Shown here piece by piece: positions 9,848-37,786 of a stretch of 56,714 nucleotides of DNA. How positions within the stretch are numbered: position 1 is the stretch's first letter; each line of letters begins with the position of its first letter. The position numbers were made by a program, and so were the translations under genes. Under the pieces are notes generated by a model that saw only the letters and a list, made by a program, of their open reading frames with translations, did not search any database and was not told the DNA's origin. The stretch lies in the IMG/VR virus record IMGVR_UViG_3300017917_000721, positions 1 through 56,714 of that record, one strand, 5' to 3'. Origin of the DNA: a virus.

Positions 9848-9868
9848 TAGCTGTAGATTAAGTTTTAG

Positions 9869-9876
9869 ATAAATAT
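9869..9876 (+). promoter_or_regulatory. T4-type late promoter motif
   Basis: ATAAATAT matches the T4 late core TATAAATA in six consecutive bases. It lies 23 nt before the ATG at 9900, and a ribosome site (AAAGGAA) lies between. It is one of eight exact copies placed just upstream of late-type genes in the window. Confidence 0.7.
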
Positions 9877-9899
9877 GATTATCAAAGGAAATAGATAAA

Positions 9900-21670: not shown

Positions 21671-21673
21671 ATT

Positions 21674-22648: not shown

Positions 22649-22654
22649 TTTATA

Positions 22655-23623
22655 ATGGCAACGTATAATAGTTTTAAAAGAATTGCTACAGATTCATTTG
22701 TTTCAGGAAGTTTAACAAATTCTGACATTGCCGCCGGAGCAGTAATTAGTGGAAAACTAGCAACAGACGCTGTTACCAGTGCTAAAATAGCCACAGGAGC
22801 AATTGGAACAAACGAGTTAGCTGGAACAGTTGACCTTAGCACTAAAACAGTAACTTATCGAACAATAGTTAACGGAGATATCAGCGGCTCAGCTGCAATA
22901 GCAGCCAGCAAACTTGCAACAGGAGCTGCTACAACAAACTTAGGCTATACTCCACTAAACAAAGCTGGCGGCACAATGTCTGGAGTCCTACAGACTACTG
23001 CTGGTTCTGCAGCAACACCTGCTATTGGAGTAAACGGTAATACTAATACTGGTATCTTCTTTGGCAATGACAACACAGTTCGAATAACAACAGCTGGTAC
23101 AGAGCGTGCTAGATGGGATCCTAGCGGTCGATTCTTGCAAGGTACTAGCCAATCAGCAGGATCCCCAATGTTCCAAAGTCACGGAACAGGCGGTTGGTTG
23201 TATAATAATCAATTAGGATCTGGCACAGGCTGGCAACAGCTTAACAGCAATTTTGGCTGGACAGGCTATCAACGTAACGGTAGCGGATTTAATTATACTA
23301 ACGGTACATATACAGCACCAGTTGCAGGACACTATAATTTCATGTGGCTAACATACTGCCATAATGACACCAGTTGGAATAGTGCAACTGGACACATTCA
23401 CATGAGTTGCGCTAAAAATGGTAGCCCTGGCGCTATTGGCGGGAGAACACCTCATGGAATTTGGGCTCACGGAAACGGAAGCCCTTATCCACATGGAATT
23501 ACATGGATGCAGACATTCTATATGAATGCAGGGGAATACGCCAGCGTCATTACTTACTGGACTAATAACAACAATAGATTCCATTCATCACACTCGTTCT
23601 TTAACGGATACCTAATTGGATAA
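22655..23623 (+). CDS. Short tail fiber with C1q/TNF-like tip (copy 3 of 3)
   Basis: 322 residues, starting 6 bp after copy 2. N-terminal 'MATYNSFKRIATDSFVSGS', then 'KTVTYRTIVNGDI', 'YTPLNKAGGTMSG' and a tip containing 'GTYTAPVAGHYNFMWLTYC', 'MNAGEYASVITYW' and terminal 'FFNGYLIG'. These positions align with the other two copies. It is the last gene before a late promoter motif and the 217-aa gene, so it closes the fiber triplet. Assignment rests on the shared anchor and the 'APVAGxY' C1q-type strand. Confidence 0.75.
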   Translation: MATYNSFKRIATDSFVSGSLTNSDIAAGAVISGKLATDAVTSAKIATGAIGTNELAGTVDLSTKTVTYRTIVNGDISGSAAIAASKLATGAATTNLGYTPLNKAGGTMSGVLQTTAGSAATPAIGVNGNTNTGIFFGNDNTVRITTAGTERARWDPSGRFLQGTSQSAGSPMFQSHGTGGWLYNNQLGSGTGWQQLNSNFGWTGYQRNGSGFNYTNGTYTAPVAGHYNFMWLTYCHNDTSWNSATGHIHMSCAKNGSPGAIGGRTPHGIWAHGNGSPYPHGITWMQTFYMNAGEYASVITYWTNNNNRFHSSHSFFNGYLIG

Positions 23624-23651: not shown

Positions 23652-24305
23652 ATGCCTCAATTTTCGATTTACCTAACTGAATTACAAGATAAACTACTCA
23701 AACATACAGTAGCCAACCCAACAGAGTGGATTGACAATCTTGTTGAATGGCGAGTTAGAATTGCACAAGACGATTATCTTCCTACAGCTATTGCACAGCT
23801 TCAAGAAAAAGGAGCAACGTCAATTCCTGGAACACGGGACGAAATTATTATGGCGGCAGATCTGCCTCCTAAGAATCCTAACTGGACTCCAGTAGAAATA
23901 GACGATCCAAACGACGACAGAACTGTACTGTATACCTTTGATTTAGAAGAAGATGATTTAAAAATGTTAGCTTGGATGTATGAAAATCCACACGAGCACA
24001 TCATACAATGGGTAGTTGAAAGATGTGAAATTGCATTAAAAGAAAAGGCAGAACAGGTTAAGAAAGAGTTACTAGCTGATCCAACTTGGACTGATCCAAT
24101 TCCATTAGATCCTATAGCACTTATGGATCTTGTTCACCTACGCAGCGTAGAAGATATCATGGTAGAAAGTCAAGAAATTATTACTAACATGGTTGCAGAA
24201 ATGGCAGAAGGAAAAGAAGGATATGTTCCGCCAGCTCCAGTTAACGTAATCTATAAGCACAGAGAAGAAGGAGCACCGCCAGCTCCACCAGGCGCTCCAG
24301 TATAA
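23652..24305 (+). CDS. Unknown protein with two-fold internal repeat, possible fiber assembly factor
   Basis: 217 residues, its own late promoter motif and a CGGAG ribosome site. The N-terminal segment 'LLKHTVANPTEWIDNLVEWR' (residues ~14-33) aligns with 'MLAWMYENPHEHIIQWVVER' (~107-126), so the protein appears to contain two copies of a helical unit separated by an acidic Pro-rich linker. The C-terminus is Pro/Ala-rich. There is no signal peptide or enzyme motif. Being the last gene of the fiber unit, next to the short fibers, it could be a fiber chaperone or a minor virion protein. Function is not established. Confidence 0.6.
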   Translation: MPQFSIYLTELQDKLLKHTVANPTEWIDNLVEWRVRIAQDDYLPTAIAQLQEKGATSIPGTRDEIIMAADLPPKNPNWTPVEIDDPNDDRTVLYTFDLEEDDLKMLAWMYENPHEHIIQWVVERCEIALKEKAEQVKKELLADPTWTDPIPLDPIALMDLVHLRSVEDIMVESQEIITNMVAEMAEGKEGYVPPAPVNVIYKHREEGAPPAPPGAPV

Positions 24306-24331
24306 AAAAAGCACCGCAAGGTGCTTTTTTT
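24304..24331. terminator. Bidirectional intrinsic terminator
   Basis: Stem GCACC/GGTGC (24311-24315 with 24320-24324) around a GCAA tetraloop, preceded by seven A and followed by seven T, so it can work for both converging units. It separates the + strand fiber genes from the - strand cassette and overlaps the stop codon of the halogenase ending at 24330. Confidence 0.85.
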
Positions 24332-25946
24332 ATGGTTTACCTTTGTATATTTTTTCTTTTAAATATTGGTAATGTGTAGGACACTTATCCGCAACTAATT
24401 TATTTCTTATTTTCTTTTGATTCCAATATTGAAGTGTTGAGTCTTTTAACACTACAAGTGCTTCGCCCTTGTTCCATACACCGTGATCGTATTTAATTTT
24501 TTCGTAGGCCATTCTATTAATAGGACTCAAATGATTGCCAACGAAAATATCTGGTATTCCGCCTTGATCGTTACCTAACTTATGATCTGATAGTAGACTG
24601 ATTGATAAATCAGCAGCCATTGTTTTAATTTCTTTTAGATTCTTATCAACCATTCGCCAATCAAGCTCTATATTTTCAGTTACATGACGCCAGTAAGGAG
24701 TATCTTTTCTTCTAGACATTAAGTAGTGTAAGGCAACAAATACTTTAAAACTTTCCATTGTCAAGTTAGCCATGTAATTAAACTGATCAACTTGTGCTCG
24801 GGCGATAAATTCTCTATCCAGCATTTGATACAACAAAATTAGCATTTCTTGAACGCTGTATAATCCAGTGCTTTCTAACGGCTCAATAAATGCATAACTT
24901 AGTCCAACACCAACGACATTCTTCTCCCAGCACTTGGCATGACATCCGTTTTTAATTTTTACTAGTTTAAATTCTAAACTGTCAGCCCTGTTAGGATCAT
25001 AGTAATCCATTTTTTCGCTATTTAAATATGCTTTATATTCTTCTAATGCATCTTCAACACTGATAAACTTAGAGCTGAAAACATATCCACTGCCAATTCT
25101 ATTGTACAGAGGAATATTCCATACCCATCCGTTATTATACGCAGTACAATTAGTGACATTTTTCATCTCTAATTCTTTGTCATGATACGGTACATGGCAA
25201 GTCCATGCATGATCATTTGGTAATAACTCGTTAAAGCTGGTAAATTCTACACCCAATGCCTGTTCTAATAACATAGATTTAAATCCAGTGCAATCAATGA
25301 ATAAATCACCGTATATAGTATTTCCGTCTTTTAACAATAGATGATCAACATAGCCATCTGCGTCAAGTTCAACGCTGGTTATGTGTTCTTCTATGTGTTC
25401 AACACCGTTAGGTATAGCAAATTTATTTTTTAAAAACTGGCCAAATTTAATAGCATCCATGTGATAGGCGACGTCATTGCCAAAATGAAATCCGTCTAAT
25501 TTATGTGTAGTATTGTCGCATATTTTATTTTGATAAATCAACGGCATATTACTGTAGATACATTCGTAAAAATCATTCCACGGAGTTTCAGGATGGAATA
25601 ATTTTTTAAAATACCAGTCATTGATACCATTAACTGTATTGCGTACATCTTTTGTGCCAAACGGATAGTAAAACGTTTCTCCAAGCTGGTGGAAATCAGT
25701 AAACTGAATGCTTAACTTATGAGTTCCGTTGACGTGTTCCATCCATTCTTCATCTTTTAAATCTAATAAAGACAAAAATAAATTTAATGTTCCTAGCGTT
25801 GATTCGCCTACACCAATAACTGGCTGATCTGGCGATTCAACTAAGGTAAATTTATAATTAGGAAACTTTTTAGACAGTAGTGCTGCAGCCATCCACCCAG
25901 CCGACCCACCGCCTACTATTACTATTTTTTCAATTTGTTTTTTCAT
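24330..25946 (-). CDS. Flavin-dependent (tryptophan-type) halogenase 1
   Basis: 538 residues, the usual length for the PrnA/RebH-type halogenase family. Visible landmarks: FAD-binding 'GGGSAGW' (residues 12-18); 'GVGESTLGT' (45-53), a family motif near the flavin; Lys77 in the position of the catalytic lysine (Lys79 in PrnA); 'GWVWNIP' (273-279), which contains the WxWxIP signature that sets halogenases apart from monooxygenases; and 'EPLESTG' (355-361), which supplies the catalytic Glu and the Thr-Gly of the halide site. The reaction expected is FADH2- and O2-dependent halogenation of an electron-rich substrate; the family also includes the cyanophage enzyme VirX1. Substrate unknown. It resembles halogenase 2 closely and lies 3 bp downstream of a 2OG oxygenase. 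No flavin reductase is seen nearby, so a host one would be needed. Confidence 0.9.
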   Translation of the reverse strand: MKKQIEKIVIVGGGSAGWMAAALLSKKFPNYKFTLVESPDQPVIGVGESTLGTLNLFLSLLDLKDEEWMEHVNGTHKLSIQFTDFHQLGETFYYPFGTKDVRNTVNGINDWYFKKLFHPETPWNDFYECIYSNMPLIYQNKICDNTTHKLDGFHFGNDVAYHMDAIKFGQFLKNKFAIPNGVEHIEEHITSVELDADGYVDHLLLKDGNTIYGDLFIDCTGFKSMLLEQALGVEFTSFNELLPNDHAWTCHVPYHDKELEMKNVTNCTAYNNGWVWNIPLYNRIGSGYVFSSKFISVEDALEEYKAYLNSEKMDYYDPNRADSLEFKLVKIKNGCHAKCWEKNVVGVGLSYAFIEPLESTGLYSVQEMLILLYQMLDREFIARAQVDQFNYMANLTMESFKVFVALHYLMSRRKDTPYWRHVTENIELDWRMVDKNLKEIKTMAADLSISLLSDHKLGNDQGGIPDIFVGNHLSPINRMAYEKIKYDHGVWNKGEALVVLKDSTLQYWNQKKIRNKLVADKCPTHYQYLKEKIYKGKP

Positions 25947-25949
25947 AAT

Positions 25950-26492
25950 TTACCTAAACTCAGGTCCGTATATCCACCCCACAATTACATGTCTAGTTCC
26001 TTGTGTAACCGGAGTAACTCGATGTGTGGCATAAGACGGGAATACAGTAATGTATCCCTTCTTTCTTATTTTTGAATCTTTGATAGCAGGCATGAATTCT
26101 AAATCTCCGCCTTCATACTCGTGATCGTCATTAAGTTGTAAACTAAAAGACAATTTTCTTACCTTATCTCCTGAGATAGAATCCGTGTGCCATACATAAT
26201 GATCACTACGATCCTCTGAATATTTAAAAACTAAAGGAGGATCTTTTGGATTATAACCTTCTAGGTGATATCTAAATGTTTCAGAATTAAGTAAAAAAAC
26301 AGTTTTAAAAATCTTATCTAATAAGTCTTCTGGCAACGGTTCGTTACAAATTTGAACACTTCTAAAAGATTTGTTTACAAGGTACTGCCCAAATTTATGT
26401 ACAGTACCTTCTATCCATTTAGACGAATTGTTGACAATAGAATCGCATTCTTCAGCTGTCAACAACGGTATTGATATCGACCTTGAGGGCAT
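25950..26492 (-). CDS. 2OG-Fe(II) oxygenase, PKHD hydroxylase-like
   Basis: 180 residues. The double-stranded beta-helix metal triad is visible as H102-x-D104 in 'YVWHTDSISGD' and H157 in 'FPSYATHRVTP', with R167 in 'QGTRHVIVGW' placed to bind 2-oxoglutarate. 'YEGGDLEFMP' between them is typical of prolyl-4-hydroxylase-like and PKHD-type members. The reaction is O2- and 2-oxoglutarate-dependent hydroxylation of an unknown protein or small molecule. It is sandwiched between two similar halogenases with gaps of only 3 bp, which argues for a shared pathway. Confidence 0.85.
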   Translation of the reverse strand: MPSRSISIPLLTAEECDSIVNNSSKWIEGTVHKFGQYLVNKSFRSVQICNEPLPEDLLDKIFKTVFLLNSETFRYHLEGYNPKDPPLVFKYSEDRSDHYVWHTDSISGDKVRKLSFSLQLNDDHEYEGGDLEFMPAIKDSKIRKKGYITVFPSYATHRVTPVTQGTRHVIVGWIYGPEFR

Positions 26493-26495
26493 TTA

Positions 26496-28118
26496 TCATT
26501 CTTTGCCGTTATAGATATTTTCTCTCAAATACTGATAGTGAGACGGCGCAGATTCAATTAAAGAATTAATATATTCTTTCTTCTGGTCCCAATAATCTTG
26601 AATTTGAGAGTTGTAAAACTCAGGAACTTGACCATGTCTTGCCATAATAAGCATCTTAACAATTTCTAATTGAGTAGAATTTACTGGCAAGGTGTTCATA
26701 CCTACTAATATATCAGGCATACCTCCCATAGATGCATCGCCCGGCATTACGTGAGTTTGTAGCAACTTTACAGCTAAGTCTGAAGCAGCTGTAGGAATTT
26801 GATTTAGTTTGGGATCTAACATCAAAGGATCCATTTCTACTGCTGTTGTCATGTGTTGCCAATAAGGAGTATCTCTTCTAGATGAAAATACATAGTGATA
26901 AGTTACAAAGTTTCTAAAACTATCCATGACATAATTACAGATGTAGTTAAAATGATCAATGTGTATTTTGTTTACCTGTCTATTGTGTAATGTTTCGCAA
27001 AGTTTTAGTAACATTTCTTGTACACTTAAAAGCCCTGTACTTTCTAATGGTTCAACAAACGCATAACTTAGTCCAATAGCAACACAGTTTTTAACCCAAG
27101 CACGCTCGTGAGATCCATTTTTGATGTCAATTAGTCTGTATTCACAGACTTTGCTTCTCATAGGATTTCGAACAACCATTTTATCACTGTCTAAGAAATC
27201 TTTGTATTCTTGTAGTGCTGCTTCTTCACTAATAAACTTAGTGCTGAAAACATATCCACTACCAATCCTGTTGTATAGAGGAATATTCCACACCCAACCG
27301 TTGTTAATAGCAGTACAGTTAGTAACGTTTTCAATTTCTAACTCTTTGTGAGCATATGGGATATGTGTAATCCAGGCTTTGTTATTTGGTAGCCAGTCAC
27401 TGTAAGAATTAAACTTTACGCCTAGTGTTTGCTCTAATAGTAAAGAGCGGAAACCAGAACAATCTATGTACAAGTCTGCTTCAAGGGTATCGCCGTTGGC
27501 CAGTTTAAGACCTGAAATGTACCCGTCTGTTGGGTCTGTTAACACTTCATCAATATGCTCTGATACATGAACAACACCGTTTGGAATACAGATTTTTTCT
27601 TTTAAGAATTCGCCAAATAGCGTTGCATCCATGTGATATGCAGCATCGTTTGTAAAACTAAAGCCAGGCAACTGTCCATCTTTGTTATCAAATATTTTTG
27701 ATTTATAAATCATTGGCATTGAGCTGTAAAACGATTCATAAAAGTCATTATTATCTAAATCTGGATTTGATACTTTCTTTACGTACCAGTCAGCTGTGCC
27801 TTGTTGCGTATTTTGTAAATCTTTGATGCCAAATGGATAGTAAAATGCTTTTCCTTTTTCATAAAAATCAGTAAATTTAATTGCTAACTTATAGGTAGCA
27901 TTACAATAGGCCATCCAGTCTTCATCTTTTAATCCTAGTAAGCCTAAGTACTGATTAATTGTTCCTAGTGTTGATTCGCCTACACCAATAATTGGAACAT
28001 TTGGAGATTCTACTAGAGCGATTTCAATATTAGGAAATTGTTTAGATAGCATAGCCGCTGACATCCAGCCAGCAGATCCGCCACCAACAATGATAATTCG
28101 TTCAATAGGTTTTTTCAT
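26496..28118 (-). CDS. Flavin-dependent (tryptophan-type) halogenase 2
   Basis: 540 residues. Landmarks at nearly the same positions as in halogenase 1: 'GGGSAGW' (12-18), 'GVGESTLGT' (45-53), Lys77 as catalytic lysine, 'GWVWNIP' (274-280) and 'EPLESTG' (356-362). Much of the N-terminal 85 residues is identical by eye to halogenase 1, so the two look like a duplication that has diverged, now separated by an oxygenase gene. It has its own ribosome site (AAGGAT) and a late promoter motif 21 nt before the start codon, so it can head a three-gene subunit (halogenase 2, 2OG oxygenase, halogenase 1). Substrate unknown; all core catalytic residues are present. Confidence 0.9.
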   Translation of the reverse strand: MKKPIERIIIVGGGSAGWMSAAMLSKQFPNIEIALVESPNVPIIGVGESTLGTINQYLGLLGLKDEDWMAYCNATYKLAIKFTDFYEKGKAFYYPFGIKDLQNTQQGTADWYVKKVSNPDLDNNDFYESFYSSMPMIYKSKIFDNKDGQLPGFSFTNDAAYHMDATLFGEFLKEKICIPNGVVHVSEHIDEVLTDPTDGYISGLKLANGDTLEADLYIDCSGFRSLLLEQTLGVKFNSYSDWLPNNKAWITHIPYAHKELEIENVTNCTAINNGWVWNIPLYNRIGSGYVFSTKFISEEAALQEYKDFLDSDKMVVRNPMRSKVCEYRLIDIKNGSHERAWVKNCVAIGLSYAFVEPLESTGLLSVQEMLLKLCETLHNRQVNKIHIDHFNYICNYVMDSFRNFVTYHYVFSSRRDTPYWQHMTTAVEMDPLMLDPKLNQIPTAASDLAVKLLQTHVMPGDASMGGMPDILVGMNTLPVNSTQLEIVKMLIMARHGQVPEFYNSQIQDYWDQKKEYINSLIESAPSHYQYLRENIYNGKE

Positions 28119-28139
28119 GTCAAATCCTTAAATATACCG

Positions 28140-28147
28140 ATATTTAT
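28140..28147 (-). promoter_or_regulatory. T4-type late promoter motif inside the halogenase cassette
   Basis: Read on the - strand as ATAAATAT, 21 nt before the ATG of halogenase 2, with an AAGGAT ribosome site between. It lies in a 38-bp intergenic gap, one of only two gaps of this size in the cassette. Confidence 0.65.
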
Positions 28148-28156
28148 CGGGTGGTT

Positions 28157-28789
28157 TTAAATGAGATTACGATCCTGAACAGGTAAATCAGTCCAGTAGT
28201 CTCGTTGAAAGTTAAATGATACTGATATTCTTGTACTGTCAGTAGTGTTTGCTGCAACACAATGCTCTAACCAACCAGGGAATAATAGTATTGTTCCTAC
28301 TTGGGGACGCATTTCAACAGTCCTAACAGAAATATTTCCAAAAGGAAACAGTTCTTGTTTTAGCTGAGGAACAGGGGTTTGAATACCAAACACTCCATCG
28401 TTTCCAGTAGTCTGGTAATAGTAAACACCGGAAATCATTGCGTCTTGATGTTGATGCCATTCTTGGCCTTCACCTTTGTCTGTTTTGTTAAACCAACTAT
28501 GCACTAGTCCAATTTTAACAGGATGCCATGTTTGCGCTTTATCAATGTAATGCTTAACATGTGTTTCGATATATCTTTGTAGATTCGTCATTTTAAAATC
28601 TACAATAGTGTTATGACGAGATTTGATATTAGTTCTTACGCCACCGGTCCATCCGTCCGGACGTACAAATGCATCTTGGCTTTCTATTAAAGGCAACGTT
28701 CTTTTAATTTCATCTTGAACCAGGAAAATTTCATCCATTGTTCCCTTATGTTCATATATTAGAGTTGGGAATAATGCATGTATCTTCAC
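28157..28789 (-). CDS. Putative 2OG-Fe(II) oxygenase (phage SGVYY type)
   Basis: 210 residues. 'EWHQHQDAMISGVYYYQ' (110-126) holds His112, His114 and Asp116 as candidate metal ligands, and the 'SGVYY' strand is a hallmark of the phage 2OG-Fe(II) family often annotated in T4-like viruses. The distal His176 in 'FPGWLEHCV' and Arg187 in 'STRISVSFNF' complete the site. Its 3' end lies 38 bp before halogenase 2, and its first bases overlap the preceding 230-aa gene by 4 bp, suggesting translational coupling. Substrate unknown. Confidence 0.8.
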   Translation of the reverse strand: MKIHALFPTLIYEHKGTMDEIFLVQDEIKRTLPLIESQDAFVRPDGWTGGVRTNIKSRHNTIVDFKMTNLQRYIETHVKHYIDKAQTWHPVKIGLVHSWFNKTDKGEGQEWHQHQDAMISGVYYYQTTGNDGVFGIQTPVPQLKQELFPFGNISVRTVEMRPQVGTILLFPGWLEHCVAANTTDSTRISVSFNFQRDYWTDLPVQDRNLI

Positions 28790-29478
28790 AGGCCTTTATC
28801 CTTTAAAATTTTCTTTCTTTTAAAATACGCACCTTGGAATGAAAATGTATATGTATTTAGGCGATCGTATTCTATTGAACTAACAGTATGCATTTTAATT
28901 TTTACATCTGATTCAGATAACGGAATGACATGAGCAAGTTCTTTGCCTGCTGGAATAGTGAGTGTTTTAGGAAACATTGTTTTAGGCACTAACATATTAA
29001 CACTGGTGGTGTACTGATATTTGTAATCAACTATGCCGTTGACGACAGTTGGTTTAAATTCGTCATCGTGCCAGAAACAATTAGTAAAAAGAAAATTTAC
29101 TCCAGTTTTTTCTTTAATTCTCCACGGACTAATTAGCTTTAAGTGATGATAACTTTTTAAATATTCTCCCCACTGTTTAGAGTTATGCTGTTCAGCCATG
29201 TTTTCAGGATGCCATCTAAAGTTGTTGTCTTCGGTACTTATAGCATAGTCGTGCCAATTTTGCAGTATAAATCCTGTCTTAAATAGTGTTCCTATTCCAG
29301 GACAAGTTCTTACGGTACCTCTATTAATACCAAAATGATTTACTGTTGGAGAAAGTTTCTTCCAAAACGGTGGCAGTCTTTCTTCTGCGGGTACAATAGG
29401 AAACAGCGTTTCTAACTCAGGTACATAAGTAACACAATCAAGTACTAGTGTTGGTCTTTTAAAGAAAAAATTAAACAT
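28786..29478 (-). CDS. Unknown protein, member 3 of a three-gene paralog family
   Basis: 230 residues. Landmarks shared with the next two upstream genes: near the N-terminus 'LFPIVPAEERLPPFWKKL'; then a Cys-containing 'RTCPGIGTLFKTGFILQNW'; later 'LISPWRIKEKTGVNFLFTN'; and a C-terminal 'TIPAGKELAHVIPL'. The last pattern (beta-rich, 'PAGxxLxxVIP') is reminiscent of a cupin or jelly-roll. The overall plan recalls the DUF6065-type family, but I cannot confirm that without a profile search. It is the most divergent of the three. Function unknown; membership in the halogenase/oxygenase cassette suggests a scaffold, substrate-binding or enzymatic role. Confidence 0.7.
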   Translation of the reverse strand: MFNFFFKRPTLVLDCVTYVPELETLFPIVPAEERLPPFWKKLSPTVNHFGINRGTVRTCPGIGTLFKTGFILQNWHDYAISTEDNNFRWHPENMAEQHNSKQWGEYLKSYHHLKLISPWRIKEKTGVNFLFTNCFWHDDEFKPTVVNGIVDYKYQYTTSVNMLVPKTMFPKTLTIPAGKELAHVIPLSESDVKIKMHTVSSIEYDRLNTYTFSFQGAYFKRKKILKDKGL

Positions 29479-29479
29479 A

Positions 29480-30187
29480 TTATTTGTAACTCTTTTTGTG
29501 ATGGAACATCTTTTGATAAAATCCTGCCCAGTAGGTGCTTAGTCGATATTTGAAACTAGACGCTGACCAGTCTTCTTTTAGTGTGCTGGCTTTAATATCC
29601 ATCTTCCAATCTTCTCTTTTAAACGGAAACACTACTACTAACGGATCGCCAGGTCGTATAATAAAGTCAGATTCTTTTACTAGCCCAACAAGCCCAATTG
29701 GTTCGTCGTGGACATCGGTATCAACAATACCAGGAAATATGTCAAAAGTGGATCTCATTTCATAATAAGGATCGTATAAAAGACAACTGTAACCAGGTGG
29801 TGTTGTAATCTTCCAAGGCTGGTTAATTTTTAAATAGTGATTCTTTTTGCCATCAACAGTTAAATGTGCTTGATGCCATGGGTGCTTGCCTACATGTCTT
29901 TCAGTATTACGACACTTATAATCAAAACTTGTAAAATTTCCTTCGTCTACGTACTGTCTAATGTGTATCTCGTAAGTTGCTCTTATAATATATCCAGAAG
30001 TCAAATAATCTAATACAGGAACACATCTCTTTATAGTAGGAGTATGTGGTTTAGTCCACTGTCCAATTTCTGGAACTTCGATAGGAGTATCTTTATACCA
30101 CTCAGGCACAACTTTTCCAGCTGGAACCGGCGGAAACATTTCTATAGCTTCTAAATCGCTGCTTGTAAAGGTTATTAAATTTGTCAT
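29480..30187 (-). CDS. Unknown protein, member 2 of a three-gene paralog family
   Basis: 235 residues, overlapping the upstream paralog by 4 bp. Shared marks: 'MFPPVPAGKVVPEWYKDT', 'IKRCVPVLDYLTSGYIIRAT', 'INQPWKITTPPGYSCLL', 'IFPGIVDTDVHDEPI' and 'RPGDPLVVVFPFKREDW'. Alignment by eye with the 241-aa paralog is good across the whole length, especially at 'TSGYIxRATYE', 'TPPGYSCL' and 'GDPLxxVxPFKRxxW'. No Rossmann, P-loop or 2OG triad is evident. The conserved Cys, Trp and Gly-Tyr positions suggest a beta-barrel-like fold. Function unknown. Confidence 0.75.
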   Translation of the reverse strand: MTNLITFTSSDLEAIEMFPPVPAGKVVPEWYKDTPIEVPEIGQWTKPHTPTIKRCVPVLDYLTSGYIIRATYEIHIRQYVDEGNFTSFDYKCRNTERHVGKHPWHQAHLTVDGKKNHYLKINQPWKITTPPGYSCLLYDPYYEMRSTFDIFPGIVDTDVHDEPIGLVGLVKESDFIIRPGDPLVVVFPFKREDWKMDIKASTLKEDWSASSFKYRLSTYWAGFYQKMFHHKKSYK

Positions 30188-30909
30188 TTAAAAAATTTCT
30201 CAGTGTGAAATAATCTCTTGTAAGCGTTGTACAGGAAAAATTTTGATTTTTGTATAATCTTATTACTGGTTAATTCAGCTTCCCAAGAGTCACGTTTAAA
30301 AGGTATAACTTGTAGTAAAGGATCACCTGCTGTAAATCGTGCTTCCTCTAAATTGTTTAAGTATCCAACGACAGGAATTTTTTCATGGAACTTATCAGTA
30401 TCAATTATTGCAGGTAATATATTAATTTGCGGATTGTAAAAATAGTAAGGTTGAATAACTAAACAACTGTATCCTGGAGGTGTTTCTATGGTCCATTCGG
30501 TGTTAAACCTAAAATAATTACCAAACTTCTTGTTTTTCATAGGACAAGTTTCTTCTGCGTAAATGCTGGCAGAATTATTAGGATGCAGTCCTTGATGGTC
30601 GTCAGTCTTTTCAGGATTGTTAATCTCGTTTCTAAAGCCAGATGCAGTAATAATCGTCATAGACGGAGTAAAATTGACTATTTTTTCTTTAACACGAACT
30701 TCATATGTTGCTCTTAAAATATAGCCAGATGTTATAAAATCATTTACAGGCATGCAAGCCTTGACACTTTTTAAAGATGTTTCATCAAACCGATATCCGT
30801 CTTTGGCCGCTGGAAGTTTATTATACCACTCAGGGAGGTAATCTTTAGCTGGTATCACGGGCCAATGCTTCAAAGCTAATTGATCGTCAATATTAAATTT
30901 AATTTTCAT
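30184..30909 (-). CDS. Unknown protein, member 1 of a three-gene paralog family
   Basis: 241 residues, the first of the three paralogs in transcription order, overlapping the upstream oxygenase by 11 bp. Marks: 'HWPVIPAKDYLPEWYNKLP', 'VKACMPVNDFITSGYILRAT', 'TEWTIETPPGYSCLVIQPYY', 'ILPAIIDTDKFHEKIPVVGY' and 'TAGDPLLQVIPFKRDSW'. The strong conservation with the 235-aa neighbour shows both are real and under selection. No known catalytic motif is recognised. A weak resemblance to DUF6065-like proteins is possible but unverified. Confidence 0.75.
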   Translation of the reverse strand: MKIKFNIDDQLALKHWPVIPAKDYLPEWYNKLPAAKDGYRFDETSLKSVKACMPVNDFITSGYILRATYEVRVKEKIVNFTPSMTIITASGFRNEINNPEKTDDHQGLHPNNSASIYAEETCPMKNKKFGNYFRFNTEWTIETPPGYSCLVIQPYYFYNPQINILPAIIDTDKFHEKIPVVGYLNNLEEARFTAGDPLLQVIPFKRDSWEAELTSNKIIQKSKFFLYNAYKRLFHTEKFFK

Positions 30910-31495
30910 GTGTCTCTTCTTCTAACAACCATGTTGTTAGAATATACTTGTCTGTTTTTCCTATAGGAGGATTACCTCTATGAGTATGTGTCCAGTCTGC
31001 TGGCCAAATTAACAGTTTATTTTTCTTTGGCACTATTCTTTTATTTTGGTATAAAAACTCAGTCTCGCCTGCTTCGTCTACATCATTCATATATAACTGT
31101 ACCACTAGTCTACGTTTTGAGTCATCTCCTAACGCTTCATAGTGCCACTGATGAAATCCGCCGCCAGGCACTATTTTTTTCATTTTAATTTGCTCAACCT
31201 TATAGGATTTTTCCTGTAAGATACTAAATTTTTCAGCATATACTGGAAATATTTTTTTCCATAATACGTCTAAAAAATGATTTACAAACATCGGATCTAA
31301 TGTCTTGACCACAGATGGATGTAAAAAATATAACTGCTCGTCATCCTTCCAATGCTTAGGCACTGTATCTTGTTGGTGTAAAGATAACGAGCTTAACTTA
31401 TCGTAATGTCGTATAACGTCTTGAAAATAAGAATTGTTGAAATAGTTTTCAAAAACTCCTATAAATCCTATGAATTCGTGTTTTTCAAAGTTCAT
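30899..31495 (-). CDS. Putative 2OG-Fe(II) oxygenase with HxE motif
   Basis: 198 residues. 'GGFHQWHYEALGDDSKRRLV' contains H118-x-E120 where most members have HxD. The downstream strand 'VVQLYMNDVDEAGETEFLYQ' and 'LLIWPADWTHTHRGNPPIGK' with His170/His172 match the fold of prolyl-4-hydroxylase-like oxygenases, and Lys180 or Lys183 could bind 2-oxoglutarate. HxE is a permitted metal motif in this superfamily but is less common. It overlaps both neighbours by 11 bp, consistent with coupled translation in one message. Substrate unknown. Confidence 0.75.
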   Translation of the reverse strand: MNFEKHEFIGFIGVFENYFNNSYFQDVIRHYDKLSSLSLHQQDTVPKHWKDDEQLYFLHPSVVKTLDPMFVNHFLDVLWKKIFPVYAEKFSILQEKSYKVEQIKMKKIVPGGGFHQWHYEALGDDSKRRLVVQLYMNDVDEAGETEFLYQNKRIVPKKNKLLIWPADWTHTHRGNPPIGKTDKYILTTWLLEEETHEN

Positions 31496-32168
31496 GTTTT
31501 TTAACTATCTCAAGTCTAAAATTTCCAGCTACAGATACTCTTACTCCATCCGAACTATAAAACGGATACACTTGGTGATATAAGTCTGAAGGAAAAACAG
31601 CTATAACTCCTTCAAATTTTCTATCAACTGGTAAAGTATGGCTACTGATTTTTCCTAGAGAATCTGTGTAAATGAACTCAAAGTTTCCCTGTCTACTTTT
31701 AATTAAATCTTGATTTACGACTAGGTCTTTTTCAGCAGCCATATCAAACGGCACATAGACCCAAATAACAAAACTGTAAACACCTGTGTGATTATGTAAA
31801 GGTAAAAATTCTCCAGGACTTTGAAAGTTAGTCCAGATTCTTTCCAGTGCTAACTGTAGCTCGCAACCTTCTACATTGACTGTAAAATTAAAAATTTTAT
31901 CGAAATAATTAAACTTACCTTCTAGTTGCTCTATGTGTTTGAGAACTTCTTTTTTTAAGTCCTCAACTAGTTTTTCTGAAAGGGTATAATCAGAAGAATA
32001 TCCAGCTTTTCTTTTATGAAACTGTCTTAACAAATCATGATTCTTGTCGCCGTCGCCCTTTTGATAGTCTTCTATAAAAACAGCAACTTCTTGTCGAAGG
32101 CGCTGAAATAGAAAAGGGTTTAGTTTTTCTAACAAAAATCCAACATTAGGAAGGTCAATCATACTCAT
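31485..32168 (-). CDS. Putative 2OG-Fe(II) oxygenase
   Basis: 227 residues; ATG at 32168, with a second in-frame ATG two codons later. 'FLPLHNHTGVYSFVIWVYVP' gives His125 and His127 as candidate metal ligands, 'VIAVFPSDLYHQVYPF' gives the distal His198, and 'SDGVRVSVAGNFRL' gives Arg210. This H-x-H...H...R layout with 'FPSDLxHxV' is that of the phage 2OG-Fe(II) oxygenases, although the usual 'SGVYY' strand is altered to 'YSFVIW'. It follows halogenase 3 after a 37-bp gap. Substrate unknown. Confidence 0.72.
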   Translation of the reverse strand: MSMIDLPNVGFLLEKLNPFLFQRLRQEVAVFIEDYQKGDGDKNHDLLRQFHKRKAGYSSDYTLSEKLVEDLKKEVLKHIEQLEGKFNYFDKIFNFTVNVEGCELQLALERIWTNFQSPGEFLPLHNHTGVYSFVIWVYVPFDMAAEKDLVVNQDLIKSRQGNFEFIYTDSLGKISSHTLPVDRKFEGVIAVFPSDLYHQVYPFYSSDGVRVSVAGNFRLEIVKKHEL

Positions 32169-32205
32169 ACTGTTAATTATCTAGAAAAACAGCACGATTA
32201 TGCGA

Positions 32206-33729
32206 TTATGACTTTAGGTTTTTACGTAGCAATTTGGTTAATTCTGTGAACTTCATGGCATTAGAATGCATGACTCCTACAGAATATTCATACTCATCGA
32301 CGATAGTCGAGACTTGTTTGTCTTTGCCTATTATAAATTGAGCATCATTAAGTGCCAGTTGGGAAATACTAGGAGATAAGTGCCCAGTTCCTGCCAGTAT
32401 AGGTAACCAAAGACCTATGTCAGGTTCGCCAAACCCAGGAGTTAAATCTCTGTTTGAAGGAAATCTATTTTTACAACTTTCCAGCATGTCAAAAACAAAT
32501 GGAGTTCGTGTTGCACCGGATGCAATGTATCTCCAAAATTCGCTGTCAGTGCGTCCGCCCATATAGTGTGCAACTAAAAACTCTTTGGTCATATCATACA
32601 GCCTGGCAGTCTGTCTGTTATAGCTGTTGATAGATCCGTGATTGCAGGTTTCTTCAACTGTATTTTTTAAGAATTCAAAGTTAAAAGAAAGTAATTGTGT
32701 AACCGTTGTGTGAATACTAGTTGCTTCTAAAGGTTCTGCAAACGCACTGGCTAACCCTATGGCTAAACAATTTTTAGTCCAAACTTTTTCTAATCGCCCT
32801 GTATCAAATTTTAATACACGAATAGGATCAATAGGTCTGCCCAGTGTTGTTTCTATTTCTTCTTGTGCTTTCTCTGGAGTTATAAACTCGTCGCAAAATA
32901 CATAGCCGCAACCCTGTCTAGTCATAGTAGGAATTTTCCACATCCATCCAGAACTTTGCGCCCAAGCGGTGGTATAAAGTTCTGGATCTTCGCCTTCCTT
33001 ATAGTCTAACAAGAACGGCATAGCCGAATTCACCGGCAAGTTATCTTTATAACTTACCCATTTAACTCCTAACTTTTTAACTAAAACTTGTCTGAAGCCA
33101 GATGCGTCAATGAAAAAGTCACCGTCGATCTTTTTTCCTGACTTCAACAATAATTCTGAAATATAACCTTGCTCGTTTAATAATACATCTACTATCTCGT
33201 CGTCAACATGCGTCACTGTTCCGTTTTTCATTGTGACTTTTTTAAAATATTTTCCAACAGCATGTGCATCAAAGTGCAGGGCTGTTTCAAATTTATCAAA
33301 CTTAAAGTTATTAAGATTTAACGGAGTGACTCCTTTTTCTATAGCCCATCCAAGATCACTAGTTCTGTGCAACTGGTCTGGATGATTTACATGATAGTGA
33401 GCAAAAATATAATCAATGATGTTATTCTGACTAGGACTACCACCAATAGGACCGTAGTAATCTACGCCAACCTCTCTCCAGCTCTTGTGTAGTATGCCAT
33501 ACTTTAAACTTGCACCAGTCTCTTTAAAAAAGTCCATTAAATCACAGTCAAAGTTCCAAAAACTATTTTTTAATATAGACGTTAATAACCCAGTTGATCC
33601 CTCACCAGCACCAACAATGCCAATAGACGATGATTCAATAACAGTCAATTCGTGTTCTGGATGTATTTTGTGCAACATCAGTGCAGCCAGCCATCCAGCA
33701 GTTCCGCCTCCAACTACAACAATTTTCAT
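32206..33729 (-). CDS. Flavin-dependent (tryptophan-type) halogenase 3, divergent
   Basis: 507 residues, about 30 shorter than halogenases 1 and 2. Present: FAD-binding 'GGGTAGW' (7-13), the flavin-loop 'GAGEGSTG' (40-47), Lys76 in 'GASLKYGI' as catalytic lysine candidate, and 'GWMWKIP' (261-267), the WxWxIP signature. The halide-site region reads 'EPLEATSIH' (332-340): the catalytic Glu335 is kept, but the Ser-Thr-Gly that follows in PrnA-type enzymes is Ala-Thr-Ser, so the residue matching the halide-binding Gly is Ser338. This could alter halide preference or indicate a different reaction. The start codon overlaps the upstream oxygenase stop (ATGA), indicating coupling. Confidence 0.88.
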   Translation of the reverse strand: MKIVVVGGGTAGWLAALMLHKIHPEHELTVIESSSIGIVGAGEGSTGLLTSILKNSFWNFDCDLMDFFKETGASLKYGILHKSWREVGVDYYGPIGGSPSQNNIIDYIFAHYHVNHPDQLHRTSDLGWAIEKGVTPLNLNNFKFDKFETALHFDAHAVGKYFKKVTMKNGTVTHVDDEIVDVLLNEQGYISELLLKSGKKIDGDFFIDASGFRQVLVKKLGVKWVSYKDNLPVNSAMPFLLDYKEGEDPELYTTAWAQSSGWMWKIPTMTRQGCGYVFCDEFITPEKAQEEIETTLGRPIDPIRVLKFDTGRLEKVWTKNCLAIGLASAFAEPLEATSIHTTVTQLLSFNFEFLKNTVEETCNHGSINSYNRQTARLYDMTKEFLVAHYMGGRTDSEFWRYIASGATRTPFVFDMLESCKNRFPSNRDLTPGFGEPDIGLWLPILAGTGHLSPSISQLALNDAQFIIGKDKQVSTIVDEYEYSVGVMHSNAMKFTELTKLLRKNLKS

Positions 33730-34370
33730 AAACCTTCTCCTTGGCCGTCATCAACGGACAGCATAACATTTATTGGAACGACGATTCTTAAACTCCCGTC
33801 AGTATGAGCGGGTGTATGATGGTCTAGCCAAGACGGAAATGCAACTATATCTCCCTCTTCAACGACAGCACTTACTGGCGGCGGCATGTATATTTCAGGT
33901 AACAAATTTCTATTTTTAGTAGGAGTTACACCTTTTATCATTCTAGAATTAGGATTGACAAACACCGTTCCAGCAGTTTCTGGATTATCTACTTTTACAT
34001 AATGCACCATTGACCATTGTATAGTAGTTGGGCCGCCGGTATGATCGTGTACAAATTGTGCAGTAGTGTTAGTCATAAGCGCATACCAACAGCGTATCTT
34101 GAACTGCCAGCCTTGACCAAAATCAATTCCAGTATGTTCAAGAAATTGTTTTATATCTTCATAGTAAAATTTTTCTAAAATTTGCCAAGGAACTTTTGTT
34201 GCTCCGGGTACATAATCAGTATAAGCCTGTGCTAATTTGTCATTGACACCGTTTTTAAGAAACTGGGGGTAGACGTTATCTAACATGTATTTTTTAATTT
34301 TATCGTGATTGCTGGCCTTAAATTTAAACACAGGCACAGGAAACAACGGCATGTTAGTTACACTGGTCAT
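33726..34370 (-). CDS. Putative 2OG-Fe(II) oxygenase
   Basis: 214 residues from the ATG at 34370. I prefer this to a GTG 12 bases upstream (34382) because it gives the ATGA overlap with the preceding stop that other genes here show. 'AQFVHDHTGGPTTIQWSMVH' holds His108 and His110 as metal ligand candidates; 'GDIVAFPSWLDHHTPAHTDG' gives His184/His185; 'SLRIVVPINVML' gives Arg195. The pattern matches the phage 2OG-Fe(II) family with the distal 'FPSWLxH' strand. It lies directly before halogenase 3 and is translationally coupled to it. Confidence 0.78.
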   Translation of the reverse strand: MTSVTNMPLFPVPVFKFKASNHDKIKKYMLDNVYPQFLKNGVNDKLAQAYTDYVPGATKVPWQILEKFYYEDIKQFLEHTGIDFGQGWQFKIRCWYALMTNTTAQFVHDHTGGPTTIQWSMVHYVKVDNPETAGTVFVNPNSRMIKGVTPTKNRNLLPEIYMPPPVSAVVEEGDIVAFPSWLDHHTPAHTDGSLRIVVPINVMLSVDDGQGEGL

Positions 34371-35044
34371 CGGTCTTCCCACGCAGAATTATTATCAACA
34401 TGCGGATATTCAAACTCGTATTTGTCTATAAAAAATAACACAGATCTTCTTGGTTCACCGCAAAGCGTTTTAAAATTATTAGGTCTATGATAAAGTTTGG
34501 CATCGTAGGCGACTAGTCTATTAAACACGTTACCAACTCTTATAGTTTCTTCAAAGTGTTTATGATTTTCTGCTAAGTCTTGCAGATATTGTTCTGAAGA
34601 TTTTGCCGTTAAATTAAATTCTTTCCTTGAAGGAAAATCACCTGCATTGAATTCTCCTTCCGTTATCTTGTAAAATACGCTAGTCCCACTAGAAAAACTT
34701 CTTTCAGTTGGATTAAGGTATACTAGTCCTGCAAGGGTAACATCATCATTATGAATCCATCCGTTATTTGCTTCATCATCATCGTACGTGTCGTTGATAT
34801 GAAAACAAATGTGTGTTACAAATTGACTGATGCCTGGAAAAACTTCTCTTGCTATTTTTTTAGCAAAGTAGATGGCAAATTGTTTAGCAGCCCAGTTGTT
34901 CGATGTTAACAGATTTTCAGTCCGTTGTCCAGGAAAGTTTGCTGCCCTTTCGTATTTTAAATTAAGGGATAAATTATAAACTTTTAATGGGTTGTTAAAA
35001 AAATTATTTTTAACATGAAGATAATCAACTAATGGATGATTCAC
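34367..35044 (-). CDS. Putative 2OG-Fe(II) oxygenase (DUF6445-like)
   Basis: 225 residues. 'NGWIHNDDVTLAGLVYLNP' gives H98-x-D100 followed by the 'GLVYLNP' strand common in 2OG-Fe(II) proteins; 'GTSVFYK' follows. 'NRLVAYDAKLYHRPNNF' supplies distal His186, and 'GEPRRSVLFFID' supplies Arg199/Arg200. The arrangement recalls the DUF6445 group of 2OG-like proteins, which I cannot verify here. Both ends overlap neighbours by 4 bp. Substrate unknown. Confidence 0.72.
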   Translation of the reverse strand: MNHPLVDYLHVKNNFFNNPLKVYNLSLNLKYERAANFPGQRTENLLTSNNWAAKQFAIYFAKKIAREVFPGISQFVTHICFHINDTYDDDEANNGWIHNDDVTLAGLVYLNPTERSFSSGTSVFYKITEGEFNAGDFPSRKEFNLTAKSSEQYLQDLAENHKHFEETIRVGNVFNRLVAYDAKLYHRPNNFKTLCGEPRRSVLFFIDKYEFEYPHVDNNSAWEDR

Positions 35045-35586
35045 AACTTTTTGTTCCTTTGTAAATCAAATGCATGAAAATAATTTGGACCAAAGATTTT
35101 AACATAATGCATAAATGCCTGTATGCATTCGTTGCCATCAAACCGTTCTCTCCAGTGCAACGATTTTATGCCTTTATAGATAACAGCATCTCCAGGAGTA
35201 AGAGTGACCCCAACAGATTCCCCATTAGGTTTTGTAAAATATATTGGCCACGGATCTCCCATTAAATTTAGTGTAACACTTATTTCACATGGTTCCACAT
35301 CAATATGTGGTTTAAGTTCAGCACCTTTCTTATACCAACGACCATAACAATATGTAGGATACAATCTCTCGCCTACTAGATCATTCATAAAGAATATTTT
35401 AGAAAGCATTAAGTGAGTAACTATTGGATGCCCGTACAACGCAGGCGATCCAGGAACATGAGTATCTGCTTTGGCAAACGACTCAATGCAACTTTTTCTA
35501 AAATCTTTACCAATGTCTATAGCAGTATTATAATGTAAAAAATCTTTTACTACTACATAATTGTCCTGGTCCAGTGCTTCATTCAT
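35041..35586 (-). CDS. 2OG-Fe(II) oxygenase
   Basis: 181 residues. 'LKPHIDVEPCEISVTLNLMG' (91-110) contains the H94-x-D96 ligands and the following strand typical of phage and cyanophage 2OG oxygenases; 'DPWPIYF' and 'LTPGDAVIYKGIKSLHWRER' (129-148) give the distal His144 and a nearby Arg. It is the first gene of the oxygenase cassette in transcription order, overlapping the 3' end of the GroES-like gene by 8 bp, so chaperonin and cassette are on one message. Substrate unknown. Confidence 0.82.
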   Translation of the reverse strand: MNEALDQDNYVVVKDFLHYNTAIDIGKDFRKSCIESFAKADTHVPGSPALYGHPIVTHLMLSKIFFMNDLVGERLYPTYCYGRWYKKGAELKPHIDVEPCEISVTLNLMGDPWPIYFTKPNGESVGVTLTPGDAVIYKGIKSLHWRERFDGNECIQAFMHYVKIFGPNYFHAFDLQRNKKL

Positions 35587-35884
35587 CTTTTTCTATCACA
35601 CACCATACATCTGACTCTGGCATACACCAGTATGTGTTTCCGTCTGCGGTAACTCTTGAACCAGCAGCTGGGTGACATAAAATCTCGTCACCTGGTTTGA
35701 CAGTCATAGGTATTAAAATTGCTGTTTTTTCTGAATACTTTCCAGGACCTACTGCAACAACAGTCGCTCTTGAAGTTCTTTCATCGTCAGCTGTACTAGT
35801 AAGCACAATTCCGCCCGATGTCACTTGTTCTGGCTCGTGACGCTTAACTAAAATTCTATCATGTACCGGTTTTAATAATGGCAT
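35579..35884 (-). CDS. GroES-like co-chaperonin (role of T4 gp31)
   Basis: 101 residues, close to bacterial GroES (about 97) and T4 gp31 (111). The Cpn10 pattern is clear: 'KPVHDRILVKR' at the N-terminus, a mobile-loop segment with 'GGIVL' (24-28) whose Ile-Val-Leu is the GroEL-binding tripeptide, 'ATVVAVGPGKY' (40-50), 'VKPGDEILC' (62-70) and the final 'ESDVWCVI'. It should cap host GroEL to help fold phage proteins, as gp31 does for the T4 capsid protein. A strong ribosome site (AAGGAGATAAC) lies in front. Adjacent genes suggest its clients could include the cassette enzymes, but that is inference. Confidence 0.92.
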   Translation of the reverse strand: MPLLKPVHDRILVKRHEPEQVTSGGIVLTSTADDERTSRATVVAVGPGKYSEKTAILIPMTVKPGDEILCHPAAGSRVTADGNTYWCMPESDVWCVIEKDE

Positions 35885-35894
35885 TGTTATCTCC

Positions 35895-36344
35895 TTAAAT
35901 TAATTCAACTATATCAAATACCGTTTGTAATTTGGTTCTAATAATTTTATTTGAAAAACTATTTCTTAACCCTTGGTGTAACGGTTTTGGCGGGTAATCG
36001 ATATTGATCCATGCCCAAGCACGATGCTCGTCGCTTAACACTGGGATGAACTCGGAGTTTACTACACAAAGATATGTGTGAAAGTTGAAAACTTTATCGT
36101 TGCTGACAAAAGTTTCTAGGGGAATTGTTTTAAGAACTTCTGGAGAATTGCCAATCTCTTCTTGGATTTCTCTTTGAAGACCTTGCCAAGGGTTTTCGTT
36201 TTGAAGGTTAGTGCCGCCCACTAACCCCCAAGTTCCGCTGTGTTTTCCGTTAGATTTTTGTAACAGTAATATTCTTCGTGTAGATTTAGCGTAGAACAAT
36301 GCTCCGCTACATACTATACGATCTGTTACAACTCTAGTCTCCAT
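35895..36344 (-). CDS. Nudix hydrolase
   Basis: 149 residues. The Nudix box GX5EX7REUXEEXGU is complete: Gly44 to Glu50 ('GTNLQNE'), then 'REIQEEIGN' (58-66). 'GTWGLVGG' before the box is also typical. These enzymes hydrolyse nucleoside diphosphates linked to another group (oxidised dNTPs, NAD-type compounds, sugar nucleotides, or capped RNA ends); the box does not tell which. It overlaps the 3' end of gp15 by 19 bp, and the GroES-like gene starts 10 bp after it, so it belongs to the same leftward unit. Confidence 0.9.
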   Translation of the reverse strand: METRVVTDRIVCSGALFYAKSTRRILLLQKSNGKHSGTWGLVGGTNLQNENPWQGLQREIQEEIGNSPEVLKTIPLETFVSNDKVFNFHTYLCVVNSEFIPVLSDEHRAWAWINIDYPPKPLHQGLRNSFSNKIIRTKLQTVFDIVELI

Positions 36345-37786
36345 TCGCCTGCCCTATACTCACCTTCAAAAGATTTTGCCCAATAAACACCGTTCCATAC
36401 GTACTGGACTCCAGTGTATATATTCGTTTGATAGATAAGCGTGTCAGATTCTTGAGTAGAATTAAAAATAACATACCAGTTGTTACCGTCAAATTCTATA
36501 ATATCGTTGGCCATGGCAACTAAACTACCCCAGGTAGCAGCCGGTTGATCGTTAGCTTCATTGCCAATATCTTCGACTATAAGATATCTTGTACCCGCAG
36601 TAGGCCCTTCAGGGTTATAAGTTAACGGATTAATTATAGCATCAAATGTTCCAGGACTAGATGATCTTAGATTATTTGTACCGTATCCCGGATCAGTGTC
36701 TAAATTTCCATCACTATCAATACCAGTATTTGTGTTAAGTGTGTCAGCATCCCATGAAACTTGCAGTATAGTTGGGTCTAACGGGCTAATTGCTACCGTT
36801 CCAATAACTTCAGTGCCGTTAGACTGTGTTAGGTACAGACTGCTTGAACCAGCTGTGTATTTTCCAGGATACTTGTCAAACAGCGATTGCCACTCGATAG
36901 GTGTACCTTGCCTTACTGGAATGTCCAAGGTTGGTTCGCGAGGAACACTACTTTCAGACTTTGCCAGCAGAATTGCCTGATTATTATAAACTTGTAAATT
37001 ATAATCTGATATTGTAACTGTTTCTCTAGTTAACAGTTGTCCCATGACAGTCTCTGGACCTGCCAAAGGCTGTCCTAGTCCTTCAATATACGTATTTGCA
37101 TTAGTAGTTGCACCTTCGTATAAGCTGGTGATAATTTTTGTAATAACACCAAGATGCTTGACCTTAACCGGAGGACTGATCCATATTGGTGTTTCTAATT
37201 GCAAGGTTGCAATATCAATTGGCGTGTCAGTTCCAACAGGAACAGAGCGACTGGACCAAGTAGTTTGTGTTAAATTTAACACAGATAAACTAGTCCAATC
37301 AATGTAATTATCAGTAGTCTGTAACTCAAGACTTGGATTAAATAACACAAGTATTTGCTCTAACAGTTGTAATTTCTGTTCAGTGTTTGCTGTCCAAATG
37401 TCACACTTCATAGTTAATTTGAAAGGTGTTGGCATCAGGCGTTCGACAGTATAGTTACGACCTTGACCTGTAGTATAAACCGGATTATTAGGGTCAGCGT
37501 TGTTTATTTCTCGTTCTCTAACGTGTACTTTTCCAACAAAGGTTGAGTCGCTCAATCTTGCTGTGTCTAATTCTAAACCACTGATATAAACAGCAATACG
37601 AGGAACGCTGTTAACTTTGTTTTCACTGTTTTGACGAACAATACTAGCTGCTTGTCTGTCAGCATCGCCATACATAACTGGAACACGTACGAGTGTTCCG
37701 TCACCGTACTTAACTGTAAAATTACTTAATACACGAATTGTCTGTGTTAAGTATCGTCTTATTTGTCCGTCATAAAAAAATTGCAT
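36326..37786 (-). CDS. 15: Proximal tail sheath stabilisation protein, T4 gp15-like
   Basis: 486 residues against 272 in T4. The N-terminal half matches the gp15 pattern: 'FFYDGQIRRYLTQTIRVLSN' followed by 'RVPVMYGDADR', 'SVPRIAVYISGLELDTAR', 'PTPFKLTMKCDIWT' and 'LLEQILVLFNPSLELQ'. In T4, gp15 forms the terminator ring that caps the tail tube and sheath and joins the neck. The extra C-terminal ~220 residues include 'FDGNNWYVIF' and 'YVWNGVYWAKSF' segments of beta type. The start overlaps the stop of gp14 by one base. It pairs with gp14 as the neck and tail-top module. Confidence 0.85.
   Translation of the reverse strand: MQFFYDGQIRRYLTQTIRVLSNFTVKYGDGTLVRVPVMYGDADRQAASIVRQNSENKVNSVPRIAVYISGLELDTARLSDSTFVGKVHVREREINNADPNNPVYTTGQGRNYTVERLMPTPFKLTMKCDIWTANTEQKLQLLEQILVLFNPSLELQTTDNYIDWTSLSVLNLTQTTWSSRSVPVGTDTPIDIATLQLETPIWISPPVKVKHLGVITKIITSLYEGATTNANTYIEGLGQPLAGPETVMGQLLTRETVTISDYNLQVYNNQAILLAKSESSVPREPTLDIPVRQGTPIEWQSLFDKYPGKYTAGSSSLYLTQSNGTEVIGTVAISPLDPTILQVSWDADTLNTNTGIDSDGNLDTDPGYGTNNLRSSSPGTFDAIINPLTYNPEGPTAGTRYLIVEDIGNEANDQPAATWGSLVAMANDIIEFDGNNWYVIFNSTQESDTLIYQTNIYTGVQYVWNGVYWAKSFEGEYRAGEWRLEL

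Follow-up and report, generated by a model that had tools for sequence, protein, structure and literature searches.

VirX1, a flavin-dependent halogenase (FDH) that originates from the cyanophage Syn10, accepts a broad range of substrates, prefers iodide, and has an open active site that accommodates large substrates (PMC8407142). In the published accounts consulted, halogenase genes of this type and the oxygenase genes of cyanophages are counted as metabolic genes (PMC3037559, PMC9602691, PMC9964418) and listed singly, without a natural substrate; the S-CREM1 genome is reported to have 10 oxygenase genes (PMC9964418). Protection by an antibiotic has been proposed for cyanophage prnA, admittedly as speculation (PMC2984593, PMC9964418), and an effect on 2-oxoglutarate (2OG) and host nitrogen metabolism has been proposed for the oxygenases (PMC3037559). 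No paper linking such genes as a cassette to fibres was found in the literature searched, which had most subscription papers outside its reach. Here we describe a cassette of three FDHs, seven 2OG-Fe(II)-oxygenase-type proteins and three paralogs assigned to the dUTPase fold (U proteins) in an uncultivated virus record of 56,714 nt (IMGVR_UViG_3300017917_000721, called the window). We give an even chance to the proposal that this cassette is a virion-tailoring module for the late post-translational modification of tail-fibre adhesins.

In the T4-like (Kyanoviridae) phages Syn10 and syn9, the tail-fibre genes are followed downstream by a row of genes that comprises two FDHs, one U gene and eight or more oxygenase-type genes; VirX1 is therefore not a lone halogenase. 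These loci share with the window adjacent VirX1-type halogenases, U (phrog_7084), and PF13640, PF13759, phrog_1644 and phrog_2954 genes by the fibres. They differ in having two FDHs and one U gene against three and three, in belonging to the T4-like cyanophage lineage, and in carrying the cassette on the strand of the fibres, whereas it lies on the opposite strand in the window. Similar arrays are found in S-CREM1, S-RIM44, P-RSM6, S-WAM1, S-SZBM1 and Sf-CH11. That of S-CREM1 has one FDH, one U gene, eight genes annotated as 2OG-Fe(II) and one JmjC gene in a row but, unlike the window, a single FDH and an adjoining gene for a collagen-like protein, and it has been described as a set of metabolic genes. 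The arrays of cultured T4-like cyanophages lie downstream of tail fibre or tail-fibre-assembly genes, several of them directly before neck genes. The window and the cyanophage cassettes alike combine FDH, U, phrog_1644 and phrog_2954 genes at a place next to fibre genes or downstream of them. From the fibre side to the neck side, syn9-type phages and the window share the order halogenases, U, then phrog_1644/phrog_2954 genes, except that in the window the cassette runs on the strand opposite to the fibres and a third halogenase lies further in; this shared order may point to a common ancestor of the cassettes or to their transfer between phages. An earlier reading of the window from its letters (the sequence-only reading) had taken single viral halogenases as the known state and knew of no described phage system of such composition. 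Both points fall, since the phage of VirX1 itself has two adjacent FDHs and an oxygenase array, and syn9, S-CREM1 and others carry the composition, with the genes counted in PMC3037559, PMC9964418 and PMC9602691. The gene types are thus not new, being already present in cultured T4-like cyanophages; what is new here is the lineage, the dUTPase fold of the paralogs, the shared position by fibres and the fibre-linked interpretation.

The 13 open reading frames (ORFs) fill 24330-35586 on the minus strand, as the sequence-only reading had described, and end at the shared terminator that it had proposed (Table 1). Overlaps occur at seven of the 12 junctions and measure 4-16 bp, not the 1-11 bp given in that reading; the remaining five junctions are gaps of 1-38 bp. 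Third-position changes predominate in all 13 genes and, together with the recurrence of the same set in 20 related loci, indicate that the ORFs are not there by chance. The enzyme cassette is coherent, and the block that looks co-transcribed is longer than had been claimed: upstream of the cassette it runs on, with gaps of ≤10 bp in this part, across the GroES and nudix genes and two neck/tail genes as far as 39192, which brings it to 17 same-strand genes, and beyond it lies a block of neck, sheath, tube and terminase genes. That the cassette adjoins GroES, sheath-stabiliser-like and virion genes on its own strand, inside the sheath/tube/terminase block, favours fibre tailoring. The phage GroES gene shares 8 bp with the first cassette gene and adjoins the cassette in several relatives.

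The terminase of the window is 54% identical over 99% to that of Pseudomonas phage PA5oct and its relatives, and its sheath is closest to those of Atu_ph07, PA5oct and Phosso. Judged from these two genes, the window phage is a relative of the PA5oct group, whose members have genomes of ~290-490 kb, and it is probably a jumbo phage. Assignment to the T4-like cyanophages was ruled out by the same sheath and terminase. We compared 110 non-redundant related loci, of which 20 were window-like. The cassette converges on the fibre module, from gene a to the c genes, in every one of the 20, with c, t and T genes next wherever the contig is long enough. These loci hold one to four FDHs, three or four U genes and two to 11 oxygenases, the lowest numbers coming from partial contigs. 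A position by fibres in distinct lineages, both in these 20 loci and in T4-like cyanophages, favours fibre tailoring. The three c proteins of the window point the same way, as they are predicted to be receptor-type C1q heads: a model of the protein encoded at 22655-23623 (pLDDT 76 overall, higher in the C-terminal half) matched C1q/TNF heads with E 2e-7 and TMt 0.75. Gene a, which lies between these genes and the cassette, gave no family match.

All three predicted halogenases belong to the PF04820 family (E 1e-91 to 1e-112), and each keeps the FAD GxGxxG, Lys77, WxWxIP and catalytic Glu358 (FDH1 numbering), in agreement with the sequence-only reading. The active-site Lys is present in 96/96 aligned FDH relatives. 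FDH1 and FDH2 are 55% identical, while FDH3 is only 26-29% identical to either and belongs to a separate clade (support 0.98), nearer to Trp halogenases such as the PyrH-type Trp 5-halogenase; a scan of viral contigs with FDH3 as the query found no relative. Along its whole length FDH2 has 38-43% identity with cyanophage halogenases. FDH1, known here from its sequence, is a homolog of VirX1 and not identical to it, and VirX1 (PDB 6qgm) is its best full-length PDB match. The two align over residues 4-535, whereas most Trp halogenases align with FDH1 only to residue ~420-450; some alignments of FDH3 to Trp halogenases extend further than those of FDH1. The end-to-end alignment of FDH1 with an enzyme that admits large substrates to its open active site favours fibre tailoring. 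Four relatives carry an extra short FDH paralog beside FDH1 (L020:14233-15444, L021:14257-15468, L119:10710-11924 and L094:12188-13396). This protein of 402-404 aa has a very long branch and keeps the FAD site and the Lys, with Ser replacing the catalytic Glu and Phe the second Trp of WxW.

The classical role of FDHs is in making natural products, and the speculation on prnA cited above is of this kind, so the cassette could instead halogenate and oxidise a host metabolite during infection, yielding an antibiotic or signal that shields the infected cell or holds back competitors. We consider this rather unlikely. No scaffold-building, export/transport or resistance gene was seen in the cassette, which argues against the multi-step small-molecule pathway of the sequence-only reading and in favour of fibre tailoring; the cassette lies together with neck genes among the virion genes; and FDH1 resembles VirX1 throughout but Trp halogenases only in part. 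Modification of virion proteins would fit this neighbourhood better.

Profile searches returned the halogenase and oxygenase families as they had been called, although the count of seven 2OG-Fe(II) oxygenases stands on two kinds of evidence. Five pass Pfam oxygenase cut-offs (OX1 and OX3 with PF13640; OX2, OX4 and OX5 with PF13759), and two are identified by remote evidence only: OX6 has only DUF6445 (PF20043) above the cut-off, OX7 has no Pfam match, and hhalign places them on a prolyl-4-hydroxylase (P4H)-like profile with 60% and 87% probability, respectively. The His/Asp(Glu)...His...Arg/Lys layout that had been attributed to all seven is complete in OX1 and OX6. OX3 has the HxE...H triad, and OX7 has HxD...H with a sole invariant Arg, R146, two residues past the distal His. 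The layout fails for OX2, OX4 and OX5, because these have no match to the HxD/E...H iron triad and carry instead an H-x-H...H...R that is conserved across the aligned PF13759-type set. Use of 2OG by these three is plausible, since the alignment of the PF13759-type profile with P4H-like enzymes scores 98%. OX6 and OX7 are probable 2OG oxygenases, and their database names, 'minor coat protein' and 'ferrochelatase' (PHROGs) respectively, were judged misnomers given the conserved HxD...H. The family profile of OX1 matches PKHD hydroxylases, prolyl 4-hydroxylases and procollagen lysyl hydroxylases. OX1 has the fold family and the HxD...H...R in common with PiuC and with the prolyl/lysyl hydroxylases of bacteria and animals. 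Prolyl and procollagen-lysyl hydroxylases are among the OX1 relatives of solved structure, which favours fibre tailoring.

The three paralogs of unknown function noted earlier do form a single family, phrog_7084, distantly related to DUF6065. A model of U2 (AF2, pLDDT 92), built from an alignment of 67 family members, retrieved dUTPases and dCTP deaminases as the top PDB matches in Foldseek (prob 1.00, best E 8e-4 and TMt ~0.6, along some 135 of the 235 residues), and the U sequence profile independently selected dUTPases (hmmsearch E 0.009). We therefore assign U1-U3 a dUTPase/dCTP-deaminase fold on the strength of the model, a fold that ruled out their being degenerate 2OG enzymes. Set against the well-known dUTPase motifs, the aligned U sequences have neither the motif-1 Asp nor the motif-2 PRSS, and keep the region of motifs 3 and 4 in part (GIVDTD- and G-x-P-x-x-Q-like motifs); a single Cys and a single Gly are invariant. 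Given these losses, U proteins have probably given up dUTP hydrolysis for a role as binding or adaptor subunits. The dUTPase fold and the retained motifs could also mean that U proteins, oxygenases and halogenases act together on pyrimidine nucleotides or DNA; in Halorubrum virus VOLN27B (L007:7908-8741) a lone U-family protein is encoded next to a ribonucleotide reductase gene, and one VirX1-clade contig lies near a DNA methyltransferase. We regard such a role as improbable, given the missing Asp and PRSS, the location of the cassette among virion genes, and the far closer match of OX1 to protein hydroxylases (1e-11 to 1e-20) than to Tet-like enzymes (3e-6). U homologs occur in 54 phage records, chiefly haloarchaeal viruses, and scans of genome contigs for cellular relatives gave one short contig of a metagenome-assembled genome. 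Four loci (L063, L073, L078 and L086) have two U genes and six P4H-type oxygenases with no halogenase, several directly after a fibre gene.

Gene content, motif integrity, conservation, position and predicted folds are directly established, and the sequence-only reading is confirmed in its observation and partly supported in its interpretation. We propose that the cassette may chemically modify the fibres that grip the host. It would be transcribed late, together with the neck/tail genes, and before or during fibre assembly side chains in the tail-fibre proteins that the phage itself encodes would be hydroxylated by the 2OG oxygenases and halogenated by the VirX1-type enzymes, with the U proteins as probable binding or adaptor subunits. 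The likeliest substrates would be the three C1q-headed c adhesins and/or the neighbouring giant fibres, and the likely payoff an altered stability or receptor specificity of the adhesin. A more general form of this proposal, that at least two distinct phage lineages have a dedicated machine, with dUTPase-fold adaptors, halogenating and hydroxylating their own receptor-binding tail-fibre proteins, is held only tentatively, as possible though doubtful. Seeing one cassette beside fibres in distinct lineages leads to the specific prediction of modified fibre tips, which ordinary proteomics could check on existing cultured phages. If true, halogenation would join the ways in which phages alter their host-binding proteins.

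Several observations weigh against modification of the fibres. No modified residue, substrate or activity stands behind it, and the available part of the proteomic study of S-CREM1 virions, covering 14 proteins, reports no such modification and gives no sign of a search for one (PMC9964418). The neighbouring fibres, thought earlier to be rich in Trp and Tyr, do adjoin the cassette, but their composition shows no marked enrichment (W 1.3-3.2%, Y 3.3-5.9%; sheath W 1.8%, Y 3.8%). Collagen-like fibres were rejected as oxygenase substrates, as Gly-X-Y runs are ≤3 in all window proteins checked. FDH and oxygenase genes are scattered in contigs L141-L148, with a sulfotransferase-like gene as one neighbour, and the FDH of S-PM2 and the third FDH of S-RIM44 lie away from fibres. 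The interval from fibres to neck may be a mere accumulation site for cargo genes. As an explanation of the whole cassette, cargo of unrelated functions at an insertion hotspot, for example genes whose draw on 2-oxoglutarate tunes host nitrogen metabolism (PMC3037559), would account for the scattering of some FDH genes and for a highly variable oxygenase number (24 in S-SCSM1, PMC9602691). It has only a very small chance in our view, against an ordered, conserved core with U-U-U and H genes in 20 loci, motifs under constraint, and halogenases that do not use 2OG. The close relatives keep the genes together, and the scattering that the sequence-only reading had named as a possible refutation was not seen among them. 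A target elsewhere among proteins, be it host surface or intracellular proteins (as in a superinfection block) or non-fibre virion proteins, is quite unlikely. The cassette enzymes would be equally suited to any protein, and the variable size of the arrays (up to 11 oxygenases, one to four FDHs) looks as if substrates differ, but such targets by themselves leave the consistent place beside fibre genes unexplained.

Table 1. Positions of the cassette and adjoining features in the window, with predicted functions.
Feature	Coordinates	Strand	Evidence
Giant fibre genes (two, of 2722 and 3269 aa) in the fibre module	1679..19709	+	phrog_9851 tail fiber, E 2e-134 and 9e-156
Three c fibre paralogs with C1q/TNF-like heads, candidate substrates	20720..23623	+	model of 22655-23623 matches C1q domains; PF00386 0.004 for 20720
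Gene a, between fibre module and cassette	23652..24305	+	1-2 copies in 20/20 window-like loci
Bidirectional intrinsic terminator, cassette versus fibre module	24301..24334	.	15-pair hairpin AAAAAAAGCACC-GCAA-GGTGCTTTTTTT, A/T tails
FDH1, VirX1-clade halogenase, 538 aa	24330..25946	-	PF04820 7.8e-110; motifs intact; best PDB match VirX1 6qgm
OX1, prolyl-4-hydroxylase/PiuC-like 2OG-Fe(II) oxygenase	25950..26492	-	PF13640 4e-14; HxD...H...R = H102/D104/H157/R167
FDH2, VirX1-clade halogenase, 540 aa	26496..28118	-	PF04820 1e-112
OX2, PF13759-type putative oxygenase	28157..28789	-	PF13759 5e-19; HxH...H...R = H112/H114/H176/R187
U1, dUTPase-fold paralog	28786..29478	-	phrog_7084 2e-20
U2, dUTPase-fold paralog, structure predicted	29480..30187	-	phrog_7084 5e-43; AF2 pLDDT 92
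U3, dUTPase-fold paralog, DUF6065-like	30184..30909	-	phrog_7084 7e-35; PF19541 0.0027, below cut-off
OX3, P4H-like 2OG-Fe(II) oxygenase	30899..31495	-	PF13640 1.7e-10; HxE...H; H118, H172 conserved
OX4, PF13759-type putative oxygenase	31485..32168	-	PF13759 2.2e-8; HxH...H...R = H125/H127/H198/R210
FDH3, halogenase of second clade, 507 aa	32206..33729	-	PF04820 3e-91
OX5, PF13759-type putative oxygenase	33726..34382	-	PF13759 3.9e-11; HxH...H...R = H112/H114/H188/R199
OX6, DUF6445/phrog_1644, probable 2OG oxygenase	34367..35044	-	PF20043 1.2e-6; HxD...H...R = H98, D100, H186, R199 invariant
OX7, phrog_2954, probable 2OG oxygenase	35041..35586	-	phrog_2954 1.6e-51; HxD...H; H94, D96, H144, R146 invariant
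Upstream part of unit	35579..39192	-	PHROGs matches; spacing ≤10 bp
GroES	35579-35884	-	PHROGs
Nudix	35895-36344	-	PHROGs
Tail-sheath-stabiliser-like gene	36326-37786	-	PHROGs
Virion structural protein	37786-39192	-	PHROGs

No psbA-type gene was present in nine related or U-bearing contigs, which are possibly fragments, and no Agrobacterium, Pseudomonas or Sinorhizobium phages were among the organism groups tallied for halogenase matches. Fibre models derived from the window miss the fibres of other lineages, and PHROGs was used there for fibre association; in this way virion structural or tail genes were found on the flanks of L131, L135, L140 and L149. The uncultured locus L132 has the gene order T-t-c-c-c-.-H-U-...-m-m-q-q-q-f, and this order, like the flanks of the four loci just named, counts in favour of fibre tailoring. 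Its c proteins (L132:6600-9176) share their N-terminal part with those of the window and have Gly/His-rich C-termini in place of C1q-like heads.

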